Shown here one piece after another: positions 5,293 through 28,863 of a DNA stretch of 56,882 nt (the first letter of the stretch is position 1; every line of letters begins with the position of its first letter). A program made the position numbers and the translations under genes. The stretch comes from Tardiphaga robiniae (GTDB taxonomy: Bacteria; Pseudomonadota; Alphaproteobacteria; Rhizobiales; Xanthobacteraceae). The DNA lies in contig NZ_LVYV01000014.1 of NCBI RefSeq assembly GCF_001618955.1, forward strand, positions 1-56,882. The letters are read 5' to 3'. The notes below the pieces were generated by a model. The model made no database searches and was not told where the DNA came from. It worked only from the letters and a program-made list of their open reading frames with translations.

Positions 5293-6615
5293 ATGATTAC
5301 TAATTTGACTCACGCAATAGCCAAGCCGATCTCGCGTCGCAGCCTGATGGCCGCGGCAACGGGTCTGGCTCTGGGCCTGTCGGCATTTTCGCCGGCCAAA
5401 GCCGCAGACGACACCATCAAGGTCGGCGTTCTGCATTCGCTGTCGGGCACCATGGCGATCTCCGAGACCACGCTGAAGGACACCGTGCTGTTCATGATCG
5501 ATCAGCAGAACAAGAAGGGCGGCGTGAACGGCAAGAAGCTCGAAGCCGTGGTGGTCGATCCCGCATCGAACTGGCCGCTGTTCGCCGAAAAGGCGCGCGA
5601 GCTGATCACCAAGGACAAGGTCGCCGTCGTGTTCGGCTGCTGGACCTCGGTGTCGCGCAAGTCGGTTCTTCCGGTGTTCAAGGAACTGAACAACATCCTG
5701 TTCTATCCCGTGCAGTACGAGGGCGAAGAGTCCGAGCGTAACGTGTTCTACACCGGTGCTGCTCCGAACCAGCAGGCGATCCCGGCTGTCGATTATCTGA
5801 TGAAGGACGAGAAGGTGAAGCGCTGGGTGCTGGCCGGCACCGACTACGTCTATCCGCGCACCACGAACAAGATTCTCGAGGCCTACTTGAAGTCGAAGGG
5901 CGTCAAGCAGGAAGACATCATGATCAACTACACGCCGTTTGGTCATAGTGACTGGCAGACGATCGTCGCCGACATCAAGAAGTTCGGCTCGGCCGGCAAG
6001 AAGACCGCCGTGGTCTCGACCATCAATGGCGACGCCAACGTTCCGTTCTACAAGGAGCTCGGCAACCAGGGCATCAAGGCGACCGACATTCCGGTGGTTG
6101 CGTTCTCGGTGGGTGAAGAAGAACTCGCCGGCATCGACACCAAGCCGTTGCTCGGCCATCTCGCGGCCTGGAACTACTTCCAGTCGATCAAGAATCCTGA
6201 GAACGAGAAGTTCATCAAGGAATGGCAGGCCTTCACCAAGAATCCGAAGCGCGTGACCAACGACCCGATGGAAGCCACCGTGATCGGCTTCAACATGTGG
6301 GTGAAGGCGGTCGAGAAGGCCAAGTCGATCGAAGCCGACAAGGTTATCGACGCACTGCCCGGCATCGAAGCCAAGAACCTGACCGGCGGTACCTCGAAGA
6401 TGCTGCCGAACCACCACATCACCAAGCCGGTGTTCATTGGCGAGATCAAGGCCAATGGCCAGTTCGACGTGGTCTGGAAGACCCCGGCGCTGGTGGCAGG
6501 CGATGCATGGTCGAAGGAGCTCGACGGCTCCAAGGACCTGATCGGCGACTGGGTCGGCAAGAAGTGCGGCAACTTCAACACCAAGACCAACAAGTGCGGC
6601 GGTCAGGGTTCCTGA
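5293..6615 (+). CDS. urtA: Urea ABC transporter, substrate-binding protein UrtA
   Basis: A 440-residue periplasmic type-I binding protein. The N-terminus carries a twin-arginine signal (SRRSLM followed by a hydrophobic stretch and AKAAD cleavage region). The mature part has family features such as KVGVLHSLSGTMAISE, VVFGCWTSVSRKSVLPVF, LFYPVQYEGEE and YVYPRTTNKI. It captures urea for the UrtBCDE importer. The ATG at 5293 has GGGAGA upstream; reading further 5' would run through the sigma-54 promoter. The first gene of the operon. Confidence 0.95.
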   Translation: MITNLTHAIAKPISRRSLMAAATGLALGLSAFSPAKAADDTIKVGVLHSLSGTMAISETTLKDTVLFMIDQQNKKGGVNGKKLEAVVVDPASNWPLFAEKARELITKDKVAVVFGCWTSVSRKSVLPVFKELNNILFYPVQYEGEESERNVFYTGAAPNQQAIPAVDYLMKDEKVKRWVLAGTDYVYPRTTNKILEAYLKSKGVKQEDIMINYTPFGHSDWQTIVADIKKFGSAGKKTAVVSTINGDANVPFYKELGNQGIKATDIPVVAFSVGEEELAGIDTKPLLGHLAAWNYFQSIKNPENEKFIKEWQAFTKNPKRVTNDPMEATVIGFNMWVKAVEKAKSIEADKVIDALPGIEAKNLTGGTSKMLPNHHITKPVFIGEIKANGQFDVVWKTPALVAGDAWSKELDGSKDLIGDWVGKKCGNFNTKTNKCGGQGS

Positions 6616-6766
6616 TCTCGCGCTGAGGTTCTGTGTTCTCCATCATTGCGGGCATTTTCCGCCCGCAATGATGATCCTCCCGAGACTCTTCTGACACGAG
6701 ACTCCCAAAACTGGAGAAGGCGGTGAATCCGTCGCCTTCTCTTTTTTCTTCGGCCGGGGTTTTCCA

Positions 6767-8377
6767 GTGACTGATCTCCTTTATCGTTTCCGCGCGATCG
6801 CGCTCGCATTTCTGCTGATCGTCGCGACCGCCATTCCGGCCTTTGCGGGTCCTTTCGAGGATGCCGTCGCCAAATTCGCCAATGATGATTTCTCTGACAG
6901 CGACGAGGCCGTGGGCATCATCGCAACCTCGGGCAATCCGCAGGCTTTCGCTGTGATCACCGCGCTGCAGGAAGGCCGGCTCTCCGCCGATCCCGACAGC
7001 AAGAAGGTTTATCTCACCGGCACCGACGGCAAGGTCACCGATGCTGCGACCGGTGAAGCCGTCGCCGAAGTGCCGGCCAGCGCCGCCGCGGTGCGCCTCA
7101 ACAATCGTCTTCGCCGCAACATCGAATCCGCACTGGGCGGGCTCACGCTGATGTCGCCGGATCCCGCCAAGCGCATCGCCTCGGCGCAGTCGGTGTTCAA
7201 GAGCCACGAAACCGCGATGCTGCCGGTCATCGAGGCTGCGCTGGAAAAGGAAACCAACAAATCCGCCAAACAGGCCTTCACCGAGGCCCGTGCTGCGATC
7301 CTGCTCTACAAGGAAGATGCGACCGAGGCCGAGAAGATCGAATCCATTGCGATCATCAAGGGGCGCGGCGATCAGGACGCGCTGGCGCTGCTCACCAGCC
7401 TGCCGGCCGATCAGACCGTCGGTGTCGCGCGCAGCGCGGCCAGCGCCGTCACGGCGATCAACAGCCGGCAGACGCTGTGGTCGATCGGCCAGAACGCCTG
7501 GTATGGCCTCTCGCTGGGCTCCGTGCTTCTGCTCGCCGCCATCGGCCTCGCCATCACCTTCGGCGTGATGGGCGTCATCAACATGGCGCATGGCGAGATG
7601 GTGATGATCGGCGCCTATGTCACCTTCGTGGTGCAGGACGTGATCCGCACCAGCTATCCTGGCCTGTTCGATTATTCGCTGCTGATGGCGGTCCCGCTGG
7701 CCTTTATCGTCGCCGGTCTCCTCGGCATCGTCATCGAGCGCACCATCATCCGCTTCCTCTATGGCCGCCCGCTGGAAACCCTGCTGGCGACCTGGGGCCT
7801 GTCGCTGGTGCTGCAACAGGCAGTGCGCACCATGTTCGGCCCGACCAATCGTGAGGTCGGCAATCCCTCATGGATGTCCGGCGCATTCGAGCTGGGTCAG
7901 CTCACGATCACATACAACCGGCTCTGGATCCTGTGCTTCACGCTTGCCGTGTTCGCGATCCTGCTGGCGATGCTGCGCTATACCAGCATCGGACTCGAGA
8001 TGCGCGCCGTCACCCAGAACCGTCGCATGGCAGCCTCCATGGGCATCGCGACCTCGCGTGTCGATGCGCTGACCTTCGGCCTCGGCTCTGGCATCGCAGG
8101 CATTGCCGGGGTGGCGCTGTCGCAGATCGACAACGTCTCGCCCAATCTGGGCCAGAGCTACATTATCGACAGTTTCATGGTCGTGGTGTTCGGCGGCGTC
8201 GGCAATCTGTGGGGCACGCTGGTCGGCGCGTTCTCGCTCGGGATCGCCAACAAGTTCCTCGAGCCGGTCGCAGGCGCCGTGCTTGGCAAGATCGCCATCC
8301 TGGTGCTGATCATTCTGTTCATCCAGAAACGGCCGCGCGGTCTGTTCGCGCTCAAGGGTAGGGCGATCGAAGCATGA
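6767..8377 (+). CDS. urtB: Urea ABC transporter permease UrtB
   Basis: A GTG start at 6767 gives 536 residues. A signal-like N-terminus (FLLIVATAIPAFAG) and a periplasmic extension of about 200 residues precede a LivH-type permease domain from about residue 240. That domain contains AIGLAITFGVMGVINMAHGEMVMIGAYV and the conserved GVGNLWGTLVGA loop. The long N-terminal extension is characteristic of UrtB and distinguishes it from LivH. Its end overlaps urtC (ATGA). Confidence 0.94.
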   Translation: MTDLLYRFRAIALAFLLIVATAIPAFAGPFEDAVAKFANDDFSDSDEAVGIIATSGNPQAFAVITALQEGRLSADPDSKKVYLTGTDGKVTDAATGEAVAEVPASAAAVRLNNRLRRNIESALGGLTLMSPDPAKRIASAQSVFKSHETAMLPVIEAALEKETNKSAKQAFTEARAAILLYKEDATEAEKIESIAIIKGRGDQDALALLTSLPADQTVGVARSAASAVTAINSRQTLWSIGQNAWYGLSLGSVLLLAAIGLAITFGVMGVINMAHGEMVMIGAYVTFVVQDVIRTSYPGLFDYSLLMAVPLAFIVAGLLGIVIERTIIRFLYGRPLETLLATWGLSLVLQQAVRTMFGPTNREVGNPSWMSGAFELGQLTITYNRLWILCFTLAVFAILLAMLRYTSIGLEMRAVTQNRRMAASMGIATSRVDALTFGLGSGIAGIAGVALSQIDNVSPNLGQSYIIDSFMVVVFGGVGNLWGTLVGAFSLGIANKFLEPVAGAVLGKIAILVLIILFIQKRPRGLFALKGRAIEA

Positions 8378-22396: not shown

Positions 22397-23725
22397 GTGA
22401 GTGAGTATCTGACGAAGCGGAACGGGGTCTGGCACTATCAGCGGCGCGTGCCGGAGGAATATGCTGCCTTCGACACGCGGGTGCCCGTCAGGCTGACGAC
22501 CGGCATTAAGGTCGTGGACGACAAGCGCGGACGCAAGGCGATTGAGATTGCCGAGAGGCTTAACCTCGACACCGAAGCGTACTGGTGCATGTGCGCTGGC
22601 GGCAACGCGGAGCAGGCGAAGCTCGATTACAACGCGGCCGTAAAACGGTCCCTGATCCTCGACCTTCCATATTTGCCGGCGGCCGCGATCGCCAAGGAAC
22701 CGCCCGCCGATCTCATTCGCCGGATCGATGCCCTGGCTGTCGGCGATCGCGCCCATGATCCCGACACACGCGCAGCGGTGCTCGGCGCGATCGCGGCGCC
22801 GACCGTGAAGCTCTCCGCGCTTTATGAGGAATTCGATCTGGCGACGGCGACGGAGCGCCTCGGCTATTCGCCGCGGCAGCTGACGAAGTTCAAGGCGGCA
22901 AAAAAGCGGGCTATCGAAATCCTCATCGAGGTCGCCGGCGACGGCACGGTGAACGATCTGACGCGCGAGAAGATGCTGAAGCTGCGCGACCACTGGTCGA
23001 AGCGCGTGAAGGATCAGGGCATCCAGGTGCGGACCGCCAACAAGAACATCAGTCACATCACGCGGATGGTGCGCGAGGTGAGCATGCGGCACAATCTCGA
23101 CAAAGAAGTCATCGTCGCCGGCCTGCGGCTGCGCGGCGGCAAGGATGGCAGCCGCAGTCCCTATCCGATTCCATTCATCACCGGCGTGATCCTGCGGCCC
23201 GGCGCGCTCGATGACCTCAACGACCAGGCGCGGGCCGTGGTTCGCATCATGGTCAATACCGGCATGCGGCCGGTCGAGATCATCAACCTCACTCCCGGCT
23301 TCATTCTGCTCGATGCGGAGATCCCGCATGTGCGGGTGAAGCCGTTCGGCCGCGTGCTGAAATCGCAGGCATCGGAGCGCGACGTGCCACTGGTCGGCAT
23401 CTCGCTGGATGCGATGCGCGAATTCCCCAGCGGCTTCGCGCAATATGCCGACAACGGCGATACGCTATCCGCAACGGTGAACAAGTATTTCGAAGAGAAC
23501 GGCATGCGGCTGTCGAAGATGCATACGCTCTATTCGCTGCGCCACAGCCTGAAGGACCGGCTGCGCAATGTCGAATGTCCGGACGAGCTCACCGACGAGC
23601 TGATGGGCCACTCCAGCGGCAAGCCAAAATACGGTGACGGCCACGGGCTAAAGCTGAAACTGAAATATCTCCAAATGATCGCGTTGTCGCCGGCCGATCT
23701 CAATGCCGTTCGAATGGTCGGTTAG
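22397..23725 (+). CDS. Tyrosine recombinase / phage-type integrase
   Basis: 442 residues from GTG 22397. The N-terminus (SEYLTKRNGVWHYQRRVPEEYA) is the arm-binding domain seen in rhizobial island integrases. The C-terminal catalytic domain shows the active-site set: Arg in NTGMRPVEIINL, HxxR-like YSLRHSLKDRL, GH in LMGHSSGKPKYGDG and a following Tyr. It catalyses site-specific recombination, here most likely into the adjacent tRNA-Glu. I found no second copy of the tRNA 3' end downstream by eye. Confidence 0.9.
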   Translation: MSEYLTKRNGVWHYQRRVPEEYAAFDTRVPVRLTTGIKVVDDKRGRKAIEIAERLNLDTEAYWCMCAGGNAEQAKLDYNAAVKRSLILDLPYLPAAAIAKEPPADLIRRIDALAVGDRAHDPDTRAAVLGAIAAPTVKLSALYEEFDLATATERLGYSPRQLTKFKAAKKRAIEILIEVAGDGTVNDLTREKMLKLRDHWSKRVKDQGIQVRTANKNISHITRMVREVSMRHNLDKEVIVAGLRLRGGKDGSRSPYPIPFITGVILRPGALDDLNDQARAVVRIMVNTGMRPVEIINLTPGFILLDAEIPHVRVKPFGRVLKSQASERDVPLVGISLDAMREFPSGFAQYADNGDTLSATVNKYFEENGMRLSKMHTLYSLRHSLKDRLRNVECPDELTDELMGHSSGKPKYGDGHGLKLKLKYLQMIALSPADLNAVRMVG

Positions 23726-25477: not shown

Positions 25478-25825
25478 TCACGCTCGCTTACGCTTTACGG
25501 CAGCGCTCGTCGCGCGAGGCTTCGGCTTGTCGCCGAGCACAACAAACTCAACCTTGCCGCGCTTGATCCGCGACTTTAGCATGTCATTGATGCGCGTCTG
25601 CCAGCCCGGGCCCGTCGCTCGTAGTGCCGTGACGACGTCGTCGTCGAGCCGGAGCTTCACCGGCACCTTGGGATTTTCCACGCGCGGGCGGCCGGGCTTG
25701 TTCTTGAATTGGGCAAGAATATCCGGCGGCAGTTCTTCGGCCGGGCGGGAGGCGGCGAAGTCGGCTGCGGTCCATTCCGGGTTGTCGTCGAGGGCGGCTG
25801 GTGCTGTTTTCTTTTTAGCGGACAT
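25478..25825 (-). CDS. brnA: BrnA-type antitoxin
   Basis: A 115-residue protein with an acidic N-terminus and the BrnA (DUF4415) C-terminal RHH-like DNA-binding segment VPVKLRLDDDVVTALRATGPGWQTRINDML. BrnA neutralises BrnT and represses the operon. The start overlaps the end of brnT by 11 bases, the usual toxin-first order. The Lys/Arg-rich tail is an extension. Confidence 0.88.
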   Translation of the reverse strand: MSAKKKTAPAALDDNPEWTAADFAASRPAEELPPDILAQFKNKPGRPRVENPKVPVKLRLDDDVVTALRATGPGWQTRINDMLKSRIKRGKVEFVVLGDKPKPRATSAAVKRKRA

Positions 25826-26072
25826 TTCGTTTCATCTCCTTTGCATGGGCCCGGCGCAGGCTGATGGGACGCACCTTGCCGTCACGAACGGTGAAGGCCA
25901 GGAAGTAAGGCTGTTCGTCGATGTAGCCCCATGCACGATAGCGCGTTTCACCGTACTCAAAACGGTCATCAACGACGAAGCGAGCGATTTCCATGTCGGT
26001 CGCACGTGCCAGCGAAATGCCGTGGTTGGCGATGTTGATGGCATTTTTCGCTTCGTCGTATAGCTTGCTCAT
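25815..26072 (-). CDS. brnT: BrnT-type ribonuclease toxin
   Basis: 85 residues from ATG 26072: YDEAKNAINIANHGISLARA (related to the usual DxxKxxxNxxKHG), EIARFVVDDRFEYGETRYRAWGYID and a C-terminal RPISLRRAHAKE that carries the conserved ISxRxA motif. BrnT is an mRNA-cleaving toxin. Reading further upstream would run through the operator palindrome, so the ATG at 26072 is preferred. Confidence 0.88.
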   Translation of the reverse strand: MSKLYDEAKNAINIANHGISLARATDMEIARFVVDDRFEYGETRYRAWGYIDEQPYFLAFTVRDGKVRPISLRRAHAKEMKRNVR

Positions 26073-26123: not shown

Positions 26124-26268
26124 AAAAATCGAGTCGACAAGGGAGCTGCCGGCATGCTCCGCCTTCTCTCCGATCAGTCTCACGGCTAACCGACAGGTGC
26201 GGCGTTCTTGCACAACAACTAAATCTCAATAGACGTATTTTCGCACTTATATACTTGACAAATGTGAC

Positions 26269-26454
26269 ATGAAACCTAAAGATTCTACCCGACAGGGCAG
26301 CGCTGACGAAATAGAAATTACCCCTCAGATGGTTGAGGCTGGTATTCCTGCGCTTATGCAGTCGGGGCGCGTCTCGGAAGATCTGCCTGATTGGGTAGCT
26401 CGTTCAATAGTCGAAGACATTCTTCGGGATGCGTTGCGCTTGGCCCGCCGTTGA
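26269..26454 (+). CDS. Small passenger ORF of unknown function
   Basis: 61 residues just inside the left end of the transposon: a charged N-terminus, then EIEITPQMVEAGIPALMQSG and a helical tail. The 25-bp terminal repeat contains TTGACA-like sequence directly upstream, so the end itself may supply a promoter. It overlaps the 3' end of the minus-strand HEPN-like gene by 101 bases. Not recognised. Confidence 0.45.
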   Translation: MKPKDSTRQGSADEIEITPQMVEAGIPALMQSGRVSEDLPDWVARSIVEDILRDALRLARR

Positions 26455-26959
26455 CGAATTCGGTTGCGTCCATCAATAGGCGTGCAAGTTCGCGATATCG
26501 TTCAGTGGCGAGTTTTAGCCTATCCACGGTTATAGCTGTCTCGGCCGCCTTTTCAGGGGCCAGCTTTCCTGAAATTAGGATGGTTTGCTTAAATGTTGGT
26601 GCTTCAGGGCGCGCATCAAACGTCTGCTCACCATGCGCCAGGTGGTTTCTAAAGCTGCTGTATTTACCGGCCTTTGTGGTAGCAGCTTTTATGAAGCGTA
26701 ATGAACATTCGCATAGGCGAAACGAATGCTTGATAGCAGCCTCTAAAAGATCTGTTCGCGCTTGGAAGACGCGGGGCGAAAAGAACATTGCGCGCGCCAT
26801 TTCGTATGGCAGCCCGGTTGTATCTTGGAACCAATAGCTAAGTCGCTCTTCGATGAGAGCCCACTGGGCCATTGCTTGTCCGTAGGCTAGATGAAACTCT
26901 CTCTGAGAATCTACCCACTCGGTGTGATGGAAAGATTCTTTTCCAAGGATAGGCGGCAT
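26354..26959 (-). CDS. HEPN-like passenger protein (Rx4H motif)
   Basis: 201 residues from ATG 26959, preceded by GAGGA at good spacing. It is largely helical (EFHLAYGQAMAQWALIEERLSYWF, in parts) and contains FRNHLAHGEQ, an R-N-H-L-A-H run that fits the Rx4-6H motif of HEPN ribonucleases. Many HEPN proteins are toxins or anti-phage effectors. The assignment rests on motif and helicity only. A longer upstream reading frame is just the antisense of the Lys-rich small ORF. Confidence 0.5.
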   Translation of the reverse strand: MPPILGKESFHHTEWVDSQREFHLAYGQAMAQWALIEERLSYWFQDTTGLPYEMARAMFFSPRVFQARTDLLEAAIKHSFRLCECSLRFIKAATTKAGKYSSFRNHLAHGEQTFDARPEAPTFKQTILISGKLAPEKAAETAITVDRLKLATERYRELARLLMDATEFVNGGPSATHPEECLRLLNELPNQADLPRRAPTA

Positions 26960-27104
26960 GGCAAAGTCCTCGAATGAAATCGAAAAAACGAAAGCGCTTA
27001 TGGGCGCGCTCGTGCGCATGAAGCCGAAGCCGCACGAGGACATGAAGGTCGGAAAGAAGAAGGTCGGAAAGAAGTCTGCGGCTAAGAAGAAGCCCAGCAA
27101 ATAG
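26958..27104 (+). CDS. Short Lys-rich passenger ORF
   Basis: 48 codons: MAKSSNEIEKTKALMGALVR, then MKPKPHEDMKVGKKK and a Lys-rich end (total charge strongly positive). I recall similar small basic ORFs with RMKPKPHEEM next to IS1595-type transposases in rhizobia. Its ATG and the minus-strand HEPN start share one CATG. It could encode a nucleic-acid-binding helper or antitoxin-like peptide. Confidence 0.55.
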   Translation: MAKSSNEIEKTKALMGALVRMKPKPHEDMKVGKKKVGKKSAAKKKPSK

Positions 27105-27206
27105 GCCGGGCTTCTACGAAGGAATTGACCCAATGAAAACACGTTACTTCAAAGGGTATTTAGTTCTTCTTGTCGCAAGATTTTTGGGCGTTCCGATTGA
27201 ATTGCG

Positions 27207-27506
27207 TCAGACGCGTTTCAAAAAAGGAATAAGTTGATCGATGTCGTGATCAACAGCCGCGCCGATCAATCTTGCAGTTTTAAATTCGGTCATGCCAAGT
27301 AATACGATGTCTACCGACGGCCGTATCGCCGCTTTCGCTTTGGCGGCAATCGTGTCTGCGCTCTCACTCGATTCAAATACTATGAATGAAGTGGGCTCTA
27401 CCCACCACATTGTACTGATATCGTTGATTGCCGCGTAGAGGTCGTCACGGCGTTCTTGTGAGTTTCCGCTATCGTGAATGCGGAACGTTATCCAGTAGGT
27501 TGACAT
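27207..27506 (-). CDS. Small Cas2/VapD-like (SinR-type) passenger protein
   Basis: 99 residues with a ferredoxin-like pattern: STYWITFRIHDSG, helix, ISTMWWVEPTSFIVFES, helix, VDIVLLGMTEFKTARLIG. This order resembles SinR/VapD/Cas2-like small RNases. No catalytic residue assignment is secure. It lies between the HEPN-like gene and the transposase, all on the minus strand. Confidence 0.5.
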   Translation of the reverse strand: MSTYWITFRIHDSGNSQERRDDLYAAINDISTMWWVEPTSFIVFESSESADTIAAKAKAAIRPSVDIVLLGMTEFKTARLIGAAVDHDIDQLIPFLKRV

Positions 27507-27659
27507 GCGTAGTCCCTTCTAAAATGAGGGACGGCTCTTGACCTTTCGTGCAGAATCCCAATGATGGGAGCACTCACTACACTGCAGCTCATGACCCGTC
27601 CCTCGGGTTAATGAGCTATCCGAGGAGGCCGGTTGGCGCCGGTTGTTCTCCGCGAATCG

Positions 27660-27701
27660 CTCGACTCCTAGTCTGCCATGGAACTGGCGCTGGGAGTCGA
27701 G
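27660..27701. other. Inverted repeat between transposase and passengers
   Basis: CTCGACTCC (27660-27668) and GGAGTCGAG (27693-27701) form a 9-bp stem with a 24-base loop in the 276-base gap between the transposase stop and the Cas2-like gene. It may be a transcript-end hairpin. I see no gene in this gap. Confidence 0.35.
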
Positions 27702-27782
27702 ACGGTTCTTTATTTGTCCCGTTTATGAACAGACTTACGCCAAGCGCGAAAGCGCTTAACTGCCTGTTTTTTGTGGGTGATT

Positions 27783-28718
27783 TTAGTGAGCCGGCCGGTA
27801 CGTCAGGCGCTTGCCCTCGATACCCTTGAGAGCCTTCGCCGTCCGTTCCCCATCGGTAACACCAAGGCCGGATCGGTTGTTGTAGCGGAACTGGAATTCC
27901 GTCAGGTAACGCTGCAAGTGCTGTTCGCCGCAGAACGTGTAGGTGCCGCGCATACCGCGCTTGAACACGCCAAAGAAGTTTTCGACGTTGTTGGTGGTGA
28001 AGCCGAGCTTGTTCACATACTCGCGGCCGGTGTGGTTCATCGTCTGATGATCGCCGTAGGCTTTGCCGGTGTAGGTGTAGAGCGCGCTCTCGTCAGTCAC
28101 GAGCGTAGCCTTGCGAATGACGTTGGTGAAAAGGATATCGCGGACCTTATCGGCAGTGACGCCCTTCTGAACGTGGAAGGTGCGAACGGTGCCGGTGTTC
28201 TCGTCAACGAGCGCAACGATGCTGGCCTTGTGCGAATGGCCCTTCTTGTAGCCCTTGGCGCGCTTGGACGTATTGAGGTGATAAGTTTCGTCAGCCTGAA
28301 CGTTGCCGCCATTCTCGCCCATGGGAGCGGGCTTGCTGTCGATCATGGCTTCGCGCAGGCGATGCATCATGAACCATGCGGTTTTGTAGGTGACGCCAAG
28401 TGCACGATGGATCTCATGGGCAGAAACGCCGTTCTTGCCTGAGTTCATCATGTGCGCAGCCATCCACCACTTGGTGAGAGGCACCTTGGAGCGTTCGAAC
28501 ACAGTGCCTACGGTCACGGTGAATTGGCCTTTGCAGTCGTTGCAGTAGTACAGGCCGGGACGATGGGACTTCTTGGTGCCGCCCATCTTGGCGAGCTTGT
28601 CGGGATCGGAGCTACCGCAGTGAGGGCAAATCGCACCATCGGGCCAGCGCACAGCCTCAAGGGCTTCGCGGGCCTTGTCCTCGTCCTGAAACATGGGGTC
28701 TTGGAAAACTGCGGTCAT
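27783..28718 (-). CDS. IS1595-family transposase (ISXO2-like DDE)
   Basis: About 311 residues from ATG 28718 (GGAG six bases upstream). The N-terminal zinc ribbon CPHCGSSDPDK...YYCNDCKGQFTVT is typical of the family, with GTVFERSKVPLTKWW after it. The catalytic domain shows ADETYH, VTDESALY and NNVENFFGVFKRG, consistent with an intact DDE/DDN-type triad, and ends HLQRYLTEFQFRYNNR. It appears full length and functional. Confidence 0.93.
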   Translation of the reverse strand: MTAVFQDPMFQDEDKAREALEAVRWPDGAICPHCGSSDPDKLAKMGGTKKSHRPGLYYCNDCKGQFTVTVGTVFERSKVPLTKWWMAAHMMNSGKNGVSAHEIHRALGVTYKTAWFMMHRLREAMIDSKPAPMGENGGNVQADETYHLNTSKRAKGYKKGHSHKASIVALVDENTGTVRTFHVQKGVTADKVRDILFTNVIRKATLVTDESALYTYTGKAYGDHQTMNHTGREYVNKLGFTTNNVENFFGVFKRGMRGTYTFCGEQHLQRYLTEFQFRYNNRSGLGVTDGERTAKALKGIEGKRLTYRPAH

Positions 28719-28863
28719 GGGTTGCTCCAATGACTAAGGTTTTAGGGAGTCAATCCACATTTGTCAAGTATATAAGTGCGCGTATTTTCCCAGTAAGACT
28801 ATAAGCCTCATACTTCCGCCGCATTTCGTTCCGATTATGTTCCTAGCGAGCATGGAGGCGGAG

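Follow-up and report, generated by a model that had tools for sequence, protein, structure and literature searches.

In this study, we analyzed a stretch of 56,882 nucleotides from contig NZ_LVYV01000014.1 of Tardiphaga robiniae, in the following called the window, in which a transposon of the IS1595 family occupies positions 26242..28780 (2539 bp). Besides its transposase gene, this element carries a small lysine-rich micro-gene, which is its own constant second gene, and cargo genes in two places, termed slot A and slot B, for which we propose the layout end – transposase – slot A – micro-gene – slot B – end. The gene in slot B is most often HEPN-like, and its start codon usually overlaps with that of the micro-gene. 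Taken as a whole, we interpret the element as an active-looking two-slot cargo transposon, in which a constant micro-protein would control exchangeable, often ribonuclease (RNase)-like effectors with a benefit for defence or addiction, a proposal for and against which the evidence appears to us evenly balanced.

An IS1595-family transposon with cargo as the rule

The transposase gene is located on the minus strand (27783..28718) and encodes 311 amino acids from an ATG start codon, a TTG at 28730 upstream also being possible. The protein matched the Pfam profiles DDE_Tnp_IS1595 (3.6e-26) and Zn_ribbon_IS1595 as well as the NCBIfam profile NF033547 IS1595 (6.4e-55), and its residues D143, D209, E246 and N247 were invariant in all eight transposases aligned. 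The terminal inverted repeats at 26242..26266 (distal end, plus strand) and 28756..28780 (transposase side, minus strand), both with TTGACA reading inward, are complementary at 25 of 25 positions, confirming the perfect 25-bp ends reported in the initial annotation, and the 8-bp duplication it had reported, CGTATTTT, is exact directly outside both element ends (26234..26241 and 28781..28788). Also, open reading frames (ORFs) and profile matches agree with the contents it had listed, namely an intact transposase of the IS1595 type accompanied by four small cargo genes; an additional ORF of 34 amino acids (27133-27237, plus strand) received no support. In its Zn-ribbon and DDE transposase, its inverted ends and its 8-bp duplication, the element resembles the IS1595 family as characterized in PMC8101967, and it shares passenger genes with the cargo-bearing members of this family.

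Related loci were collected by a contig scan using an alignment of eight transposases, with the transposase as the sole query. The 80 loci kept were mostly labelled as alphaproteobacterial and 47-87% identical in the best segment. A bounded element was recognized in 73 of them, and together with the element of the window these formed a sample of 74 elements with sizes of 1.9-3.2 kb. All 74 contain 931-2186 bp (median 1451 bp) of DNA beyond the transposase, so that carrying cargo is the normal condition among these elements; the usual, not obligatory, IS1595 layout with a single transposase gene and no passengers was not encountered here.

An exact 8-bp duplication was present in 70 of the 74 elements (window included). 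Differing 8-bp flanks next to homologous ends elsewhere, proposed in the initial annotation as a check of mobility, were indeed observed, with 58 distinct 8-mers in the sample. In a nucleotide search of 101 genomes, related DNA was detected in 19, the own genome not counted. Six related elements have homologous ends, each with its own exact 8-bp duplication (ACAAAAAT, AATATTGT, CATATATT, AATATATC, CCCCGCAC, AGAATAGT), and the end pattern matched 22 of 391 family genomes, the backward control pattern none. Relatives differing in their 8-mers and in their cargo occur in other genomes, which makes the element a real transposon, and since the relatives share homologous ends with duplications of their own and the pattern control remained at zero, it is not a product of chance. 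The overall description as an IS1595-type transposon with passenger genes is thus supported. A clean empty site was not found; in two congeners, left-flank homology breaks off some 110 bp short of the insertion, and nothing there matches the right flank.

The preferred insertion target is a 16-bp palindrome, TAGG-AATATATT-CCTA, which extends past the 8-bp duplication (TAGG-N8-CCTA as the consensus of 70 elements). In the window, the target halves are TAGA on the left (26230..26233) and CCCA on the right (28789..28792), each with one mismatch. The outer eight target bases showed at most one mismatch in 42 of 70 sites and at most two in 54. Moreover, 32 of the 74 elements start with CCTA themselves, so that insertion recreates half a target at the junction. 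Judging from the differing flanks, the transposase would thus move the unit into AT-rich palindromes of this type and thereby generate the 8-bp duplications.

The micro-gene as the constant second gene

The micro-gene (26958..27104, plus strand) encodes a lysine-rich protein of 48 amino acids (LMGALVRMKPKPHEDMKVGKKK) with the motif TLKRMLKTPPKPH / LMGALVRMKPKPH. With a profile trained on the same set, a relative was detected in 68 of the 74 elements at E<0.01, the best reversed-ORF control reaching E 0.011; the gene is located on the strand opposite to the transposase in 67 of them, the exception being L098. The match was weak in L107 (E 0.08), a diverged micro-protein with SPPQHR instead of TPPKPH is encoded at the same position in L089, L099, L102 and L109, and L097 has no nameable micro-gene.

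Outside the elements, two of 7283 flank ORFs of the sampled loci matched the profile, and each of these has another IS1595 transposase, or a fragment of one, next to it. The right flanks of L050 and L064 each contain a further micro-gene, which adjoins an additional IS1595 transposase or fragment and lies within 5 kb of the first element; such neighbouring copies could recombine. The search of 119 family genomes gave 24 matches in 20 genomes. A transposase or fragment lies near 18 of these (13 of the 19 loci examined and five others), three others are at most 0.8 kb away from where a contig ends (G048 C9, G171 and G136), the match in G020 is accompanied by a 33-bp transposase-side remnant, and nothing recognizable was found near those in G101 C3 and G058 C6. 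In a sample of 299 genomes of the phylum, seven genomes including the own one had a match, and in each of the other six it adjoins an IS1595 transposase. When 47 pairs of micro-genes (non-independent) were compared, differences at the codon positions 1, 2 and 3 amounted to 742, 658 and 1191, and single-base codon differences were synonymous in 487 cases versus 262 that were not; the micro-gene therefore behaves as a coding sequence. Its product has only a chance-level match in Pfam (E 0.23) and none in NCBIfam.

At 26957..26960, the ATG of the micro-gene and that of the divergent HEPN-like gene on the minus strand share two bases within the word CATG. Of 37 elements possessing both genes, 31 show this overlap, and so do all three HEPN elements with a diverged micro-gene, which gives 34 of 40 overall, counts that rest on ORF start candidates, as many paired ORFs have several possible starts. 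Random shifting of the micro-gene starts gave means of 1.9 (any shift) and 5.6 (in frame) and a maximum of 13 in 2000 trials. CATG was also found with other slot-B genes in eight elements (L037, L038, L041, L053, L057, L084, L104 and L105), and in nine further elements the stop codon of a same-strand gene overlaps the micro-gene start by four bases. Because the start codons of effector and micro-gene overlap, the ribosome-binding region of each gene, and probably its promoter, would lie within the other gene.

HEPN-like proteins and exchange of cargo

The slot-B gene of the window (26354..26959, minus strand) encodes a HEPN-like protein of 201 amino acids with the motif RNHLAH at residues 104-109. 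A hidden Markov model (HMM) was begun from 20 motif-bearing ORFs, and the seed model by itself retrieved 18 members that were not among the seeds, with E values of at most 1e-3. By this HMM, a HEPN-like gene (RNxxxH) is present in 40 of the 74 elements, always in the same place and on the transposase strand, and the controls gave no match among reversed ORFs and two among 2488 flank ORFs. Pairwise identity among the 40 proteins averages about 15%, and the R and the H are invariant in all of them; the residue following the R is N in 29, H in five, D in five and V in one, and the column of E37, which is part of helix 12-48, contains E in 37, D in two and S in one. As modelled by AlphaFold, the protein of the window is mostly helical (predicted local distance difference test score, pLDDT, 82; predicted template modelling score 0.80), and RNHLAH closes the helix 84-109.

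Such a position of the motif is described for HEPN proteins in PMC3710099. The proteins resemble the RNases of this superfamily in having R-x4-6-H with a polar residue (R-x4-H with N, H or D after the R in 39 of 40), the motif located where helix 3 ends and a conserved acidic residue in the first, N-terminal helix. In contrast to the superfamily, an MNT partner is absent, and none of the known HEPN families gave a profile match with the protein of the window. Two of the 40 relatives matched HEPN_RiboL-PSP (best 8.8e-6), none of the 40 had a match in NCBIfam, and PADLOC left the window protein unnamed and gave only single, mostly weak hits within the 40-member set. A HEPN-MNT pair with a nucleotidyltransferase antitoxin was considered and rejected, the partner being the 48-amino-acid ORF. 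We regard it as likely that the window protein belongs to HEPN and, with somewhat less confidence, predict from motif and fold that it is an RNase. In the IS1595 element of L030 (131-3880), the HEPN-like gene is apparently split by an insertion, presumably of IS3 type as far as its ORFs indicate.

For the comparison of cargo, twelve close element pairs were chosen by hand. In nine of them, DNA homology was confined to three islands, namely the transposase end, 63-143 bp within the micro-gene, and the distal end; one of these island-like pairs consists of the element of the window and G011, to which it is most closely related (95% transposase identity). L037 and L038 have a short middle match just outside the micro-gene, L063 and L069 have one longer left block in common, and L058 and L064 share the micro-gene and slot B and differ in slot A. 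In the pairs L077/L079, L059/L061, L056/L058 and L080/L101, the transposases are 94-97% alike and the HEPN proteins have no BLAST match to each other at 1e-3. Within the own genome, a single complete copy is accompanied by a decayed remnant on contig C5 (L025, C5:42500-47500) with a truncated transposase and a different ORF behind a conserved 262-bp leader. This mosaicism shows that the genes in slots A and B are exchanged and that transposase, micro-gene and ends are kept, probably because elements recombine with one another where they share these islands.

Possible functions of the micro-protein

In the mechanism we propose, slot B would most often be occupied by a HEPN-like protein, predicted from the invariant R-x4-H and the fold to act as an RNase that requires no metal. 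Restraint of whichever effector occupies this slot would come from the micro-protein or from its antisense transcript, and the effector in turn would pay for the carriage of the transposon by a defence or addiction function. Besides the element anatomy, the near-constant micro-gene with its coding pattern, the recurrent HEPN place, the CATG overlap, the correlations of protein identity and the island-like homology, we count in favour of this proposal that part of the non-HEPN cargo resembles abortive-infection and antitoxin families.

Several observations weigh against it. No gene recognized by the HEPN profile is present in 34 of the 74 elements, two recurrent partner classes have no profile similarity to HEPN, and the window protein itself has no Pfam or NCBIfam match and no significant PDB fold match. 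HEPN-class genes also occur outside such elements, since neither transposase nor micro-gene was in view at 22 of 30 loci, which were viewed with flanks of about 1.5 kb only, so that a more distant transposase would be missed. Shine-Dalgarno-like words were found for the slot gene in only 13 and for the micro-gene in only 10 of 39 CATG pairs. In L058 and L064, cargo of an identical class travels with similar transposases, and the presence of HEPN is slightly, non-significantly clustered on the transposase tree (21 changes between HEPN and other versus a shuffled mean of 24.7, with 7.7% of shuffles at or below). The profile count of the micro-protein was obtained in the training set itself, and the other searches weigh more. 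Finally, the micro-gene of the remnant L025 is frameshifted while its HEPN-like frame is open, which argues against a strict need of the micro-protein to restrain that HEPN.

The main rival to a regulator owned by the element is a transposition accessory, e.g. a DNA- or transposase-binding regulator, with the slot genes as independent passengers. The micro-protein follows the element and not HEPN: its gene is present with HEPN, AAA/AbiL-like, DUF2283-like and other partners, is nearly confined to IS1595 elements, and transposase identity correlates better with that of the micro-protein (r=0.46) than with that of HEPN (r=0.11). Also, the lysine-rich tail would suit nucleic-acid binding. However, an accessory alone leaves unexplained the CATG overlap in 34 of 40 HEPN elements and eight others as well as the four-base overlap of stop and start with a same-strand partner in nine more, and we hold this explanation to be possible but tentative.

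Alternatively, micro-protein and HEPN might form a classical toxin-antitoxin pair addicting the cell to the transposon, which would fit the tight pairing and the RNase-like active site. Tn3-family transposons carry such pairs, including one HEPN-MNT, as reported in PMC7157771, and the present elements resemble them in having RNase-type effectors that were repeatedly acquired at a fixed transposon place. Those pairs belong to another transposon family and represent type II modules whose antitoxins are known, whereas here the micro-protein is unrelated and lysine-rich, the genes are divergent and form no operon, and the micro-gene persists, also with other partners, when the effector is exchanged. 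In addition, HEPN proteins of the same class are often solitary elsewhere. Because of the 22 of 30 HEPN loci with no micro-gene in view and the open HEPN frame of the remnant, we prefer a regulator owned by the element to a strict antitoxin, which we consider unlikely. Neutral hitchhiking of random chromosomal DNA caught between the ends and functionless for the element would account for the variable slot contents of close relatives and for the many cargo ORFs matching nothing in Pfam, but is highly improbable in view of the R and H kept despite low identity, the recurring position and CATG geometry, and a 61-amino-acid ORF recurring in 29 of the 74 elements.

Cargo-bearing members of the IS1595 family are known. 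Members of insertion sequence families that carry passenger genes are termed 'tIS' in PMC7986276, and HEPN cassettes are known from integrons, as mentioned in PMC3710099. Unlike described IS1595 elements, the present ones have a constant micro-gene, two exchange slots and CATG-coupled HEPN-like cargo. This arrangement was not described in the literature found on IS1595 with HEPN, on passenger genes and on ISNha5/ISNwi1, and its novelty is limited to that literature, the founding paper (Siguier 2009) being outside this scope. The sample of 74 elements yields a rule for an insertion sequence: cargo is always present, an overlooked micro-protein nearly always, and the places where effectors are changed are fixed. 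Provided that the effectors are RNases, such elements would carry, in a small format, candidate genes for defence or addiction that current models miss. The CATG pairing raises the question whether one micro-protein controls many unrelated effectors. Going further, one may speculate on an integrase-free cassette system, in which the micro-gene would anchor two slots, with its start fused to that of the effector, and by which a rapidly changing set of HEPN-type RNases and other defence genes would circulate in Alphaproteobacteria under a micro-protein controlling unrelated effectors; as yet, this appears rather doubtful to us.

Among the other cargo of the window, the recurrent 61-amino-acid 'ITPxMIEAG' ORF (26269..26454, plus strand) is located beside the distal end; in the elements that carry it, it is always opposite to the transposase and starts 13-105 bp from that end. 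Slot A (27207..27506, minus strand) encodes a protein of 99 amino acids, possibly Cas2-like with a ferredoxin-like fold. Its low-confidence model (pLDDT 60) has the beta-alpha-beta-beta-alpha-beta topology expected of a ferredoxin-like, Cas2/VapD-like protein, and its top PDB matches are Cas2. A sequence match was not obtained, and among the elements L039 and L055 alone contained clear sequence relatives. The slot-A gene is preceded by a leader (27507..27782, minus strand), of which 262 bp are 91% identical in the remnant of the own genome. As RNA, it is predicted to be strongly folded (27500-27782, minus strand; -115.9 versus -83 kcal/mol for shuffles, z -6.4), yet the homologue in the own genome reached a z of only -2.6; the leader had no match in Rfam. 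In the nearest relative L026 (1501-4362; 95% transposase identity), slot A contains two genes, which we take to encode a PemK-type toxin and a Phd-type antitoxin.

A Pfam search with 84 other cargo ORFs gave Panacea antitoxin domains (three), Clp protease (two) and DUF3892 (two) as well as single matches, including AAA_15/AAA_21, an IrrE-type peptidase, DUF4411, DUF2283, DUF4145 and HEPN, and many ORFs had no match. PADLOC assigned, among others, AbiLi to L043 (4.7e-46). There (6170-7967), an AbiL-like ATPase and another cargo ORF fill an element of the same kind with 3.2 kb and might represent an abortive-infection system.

On the left, the insertion is adjoined by genes for a BrnA antitoxin and a BrnT toxin (25478-26066, minus strand; Pfam 1.7e-21 and 4.9e-18). 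The congeners G016 and G005 have homologous DNA on the BrnA/BrnT side, with the similarity ending about 110 bp before the element. A recombinase of the phage integrase family (22397-23725, plus strand; Pfam 5.1e-7) is encoded 2.5 kb from the element, the surroundings of which may represent an integrated island.

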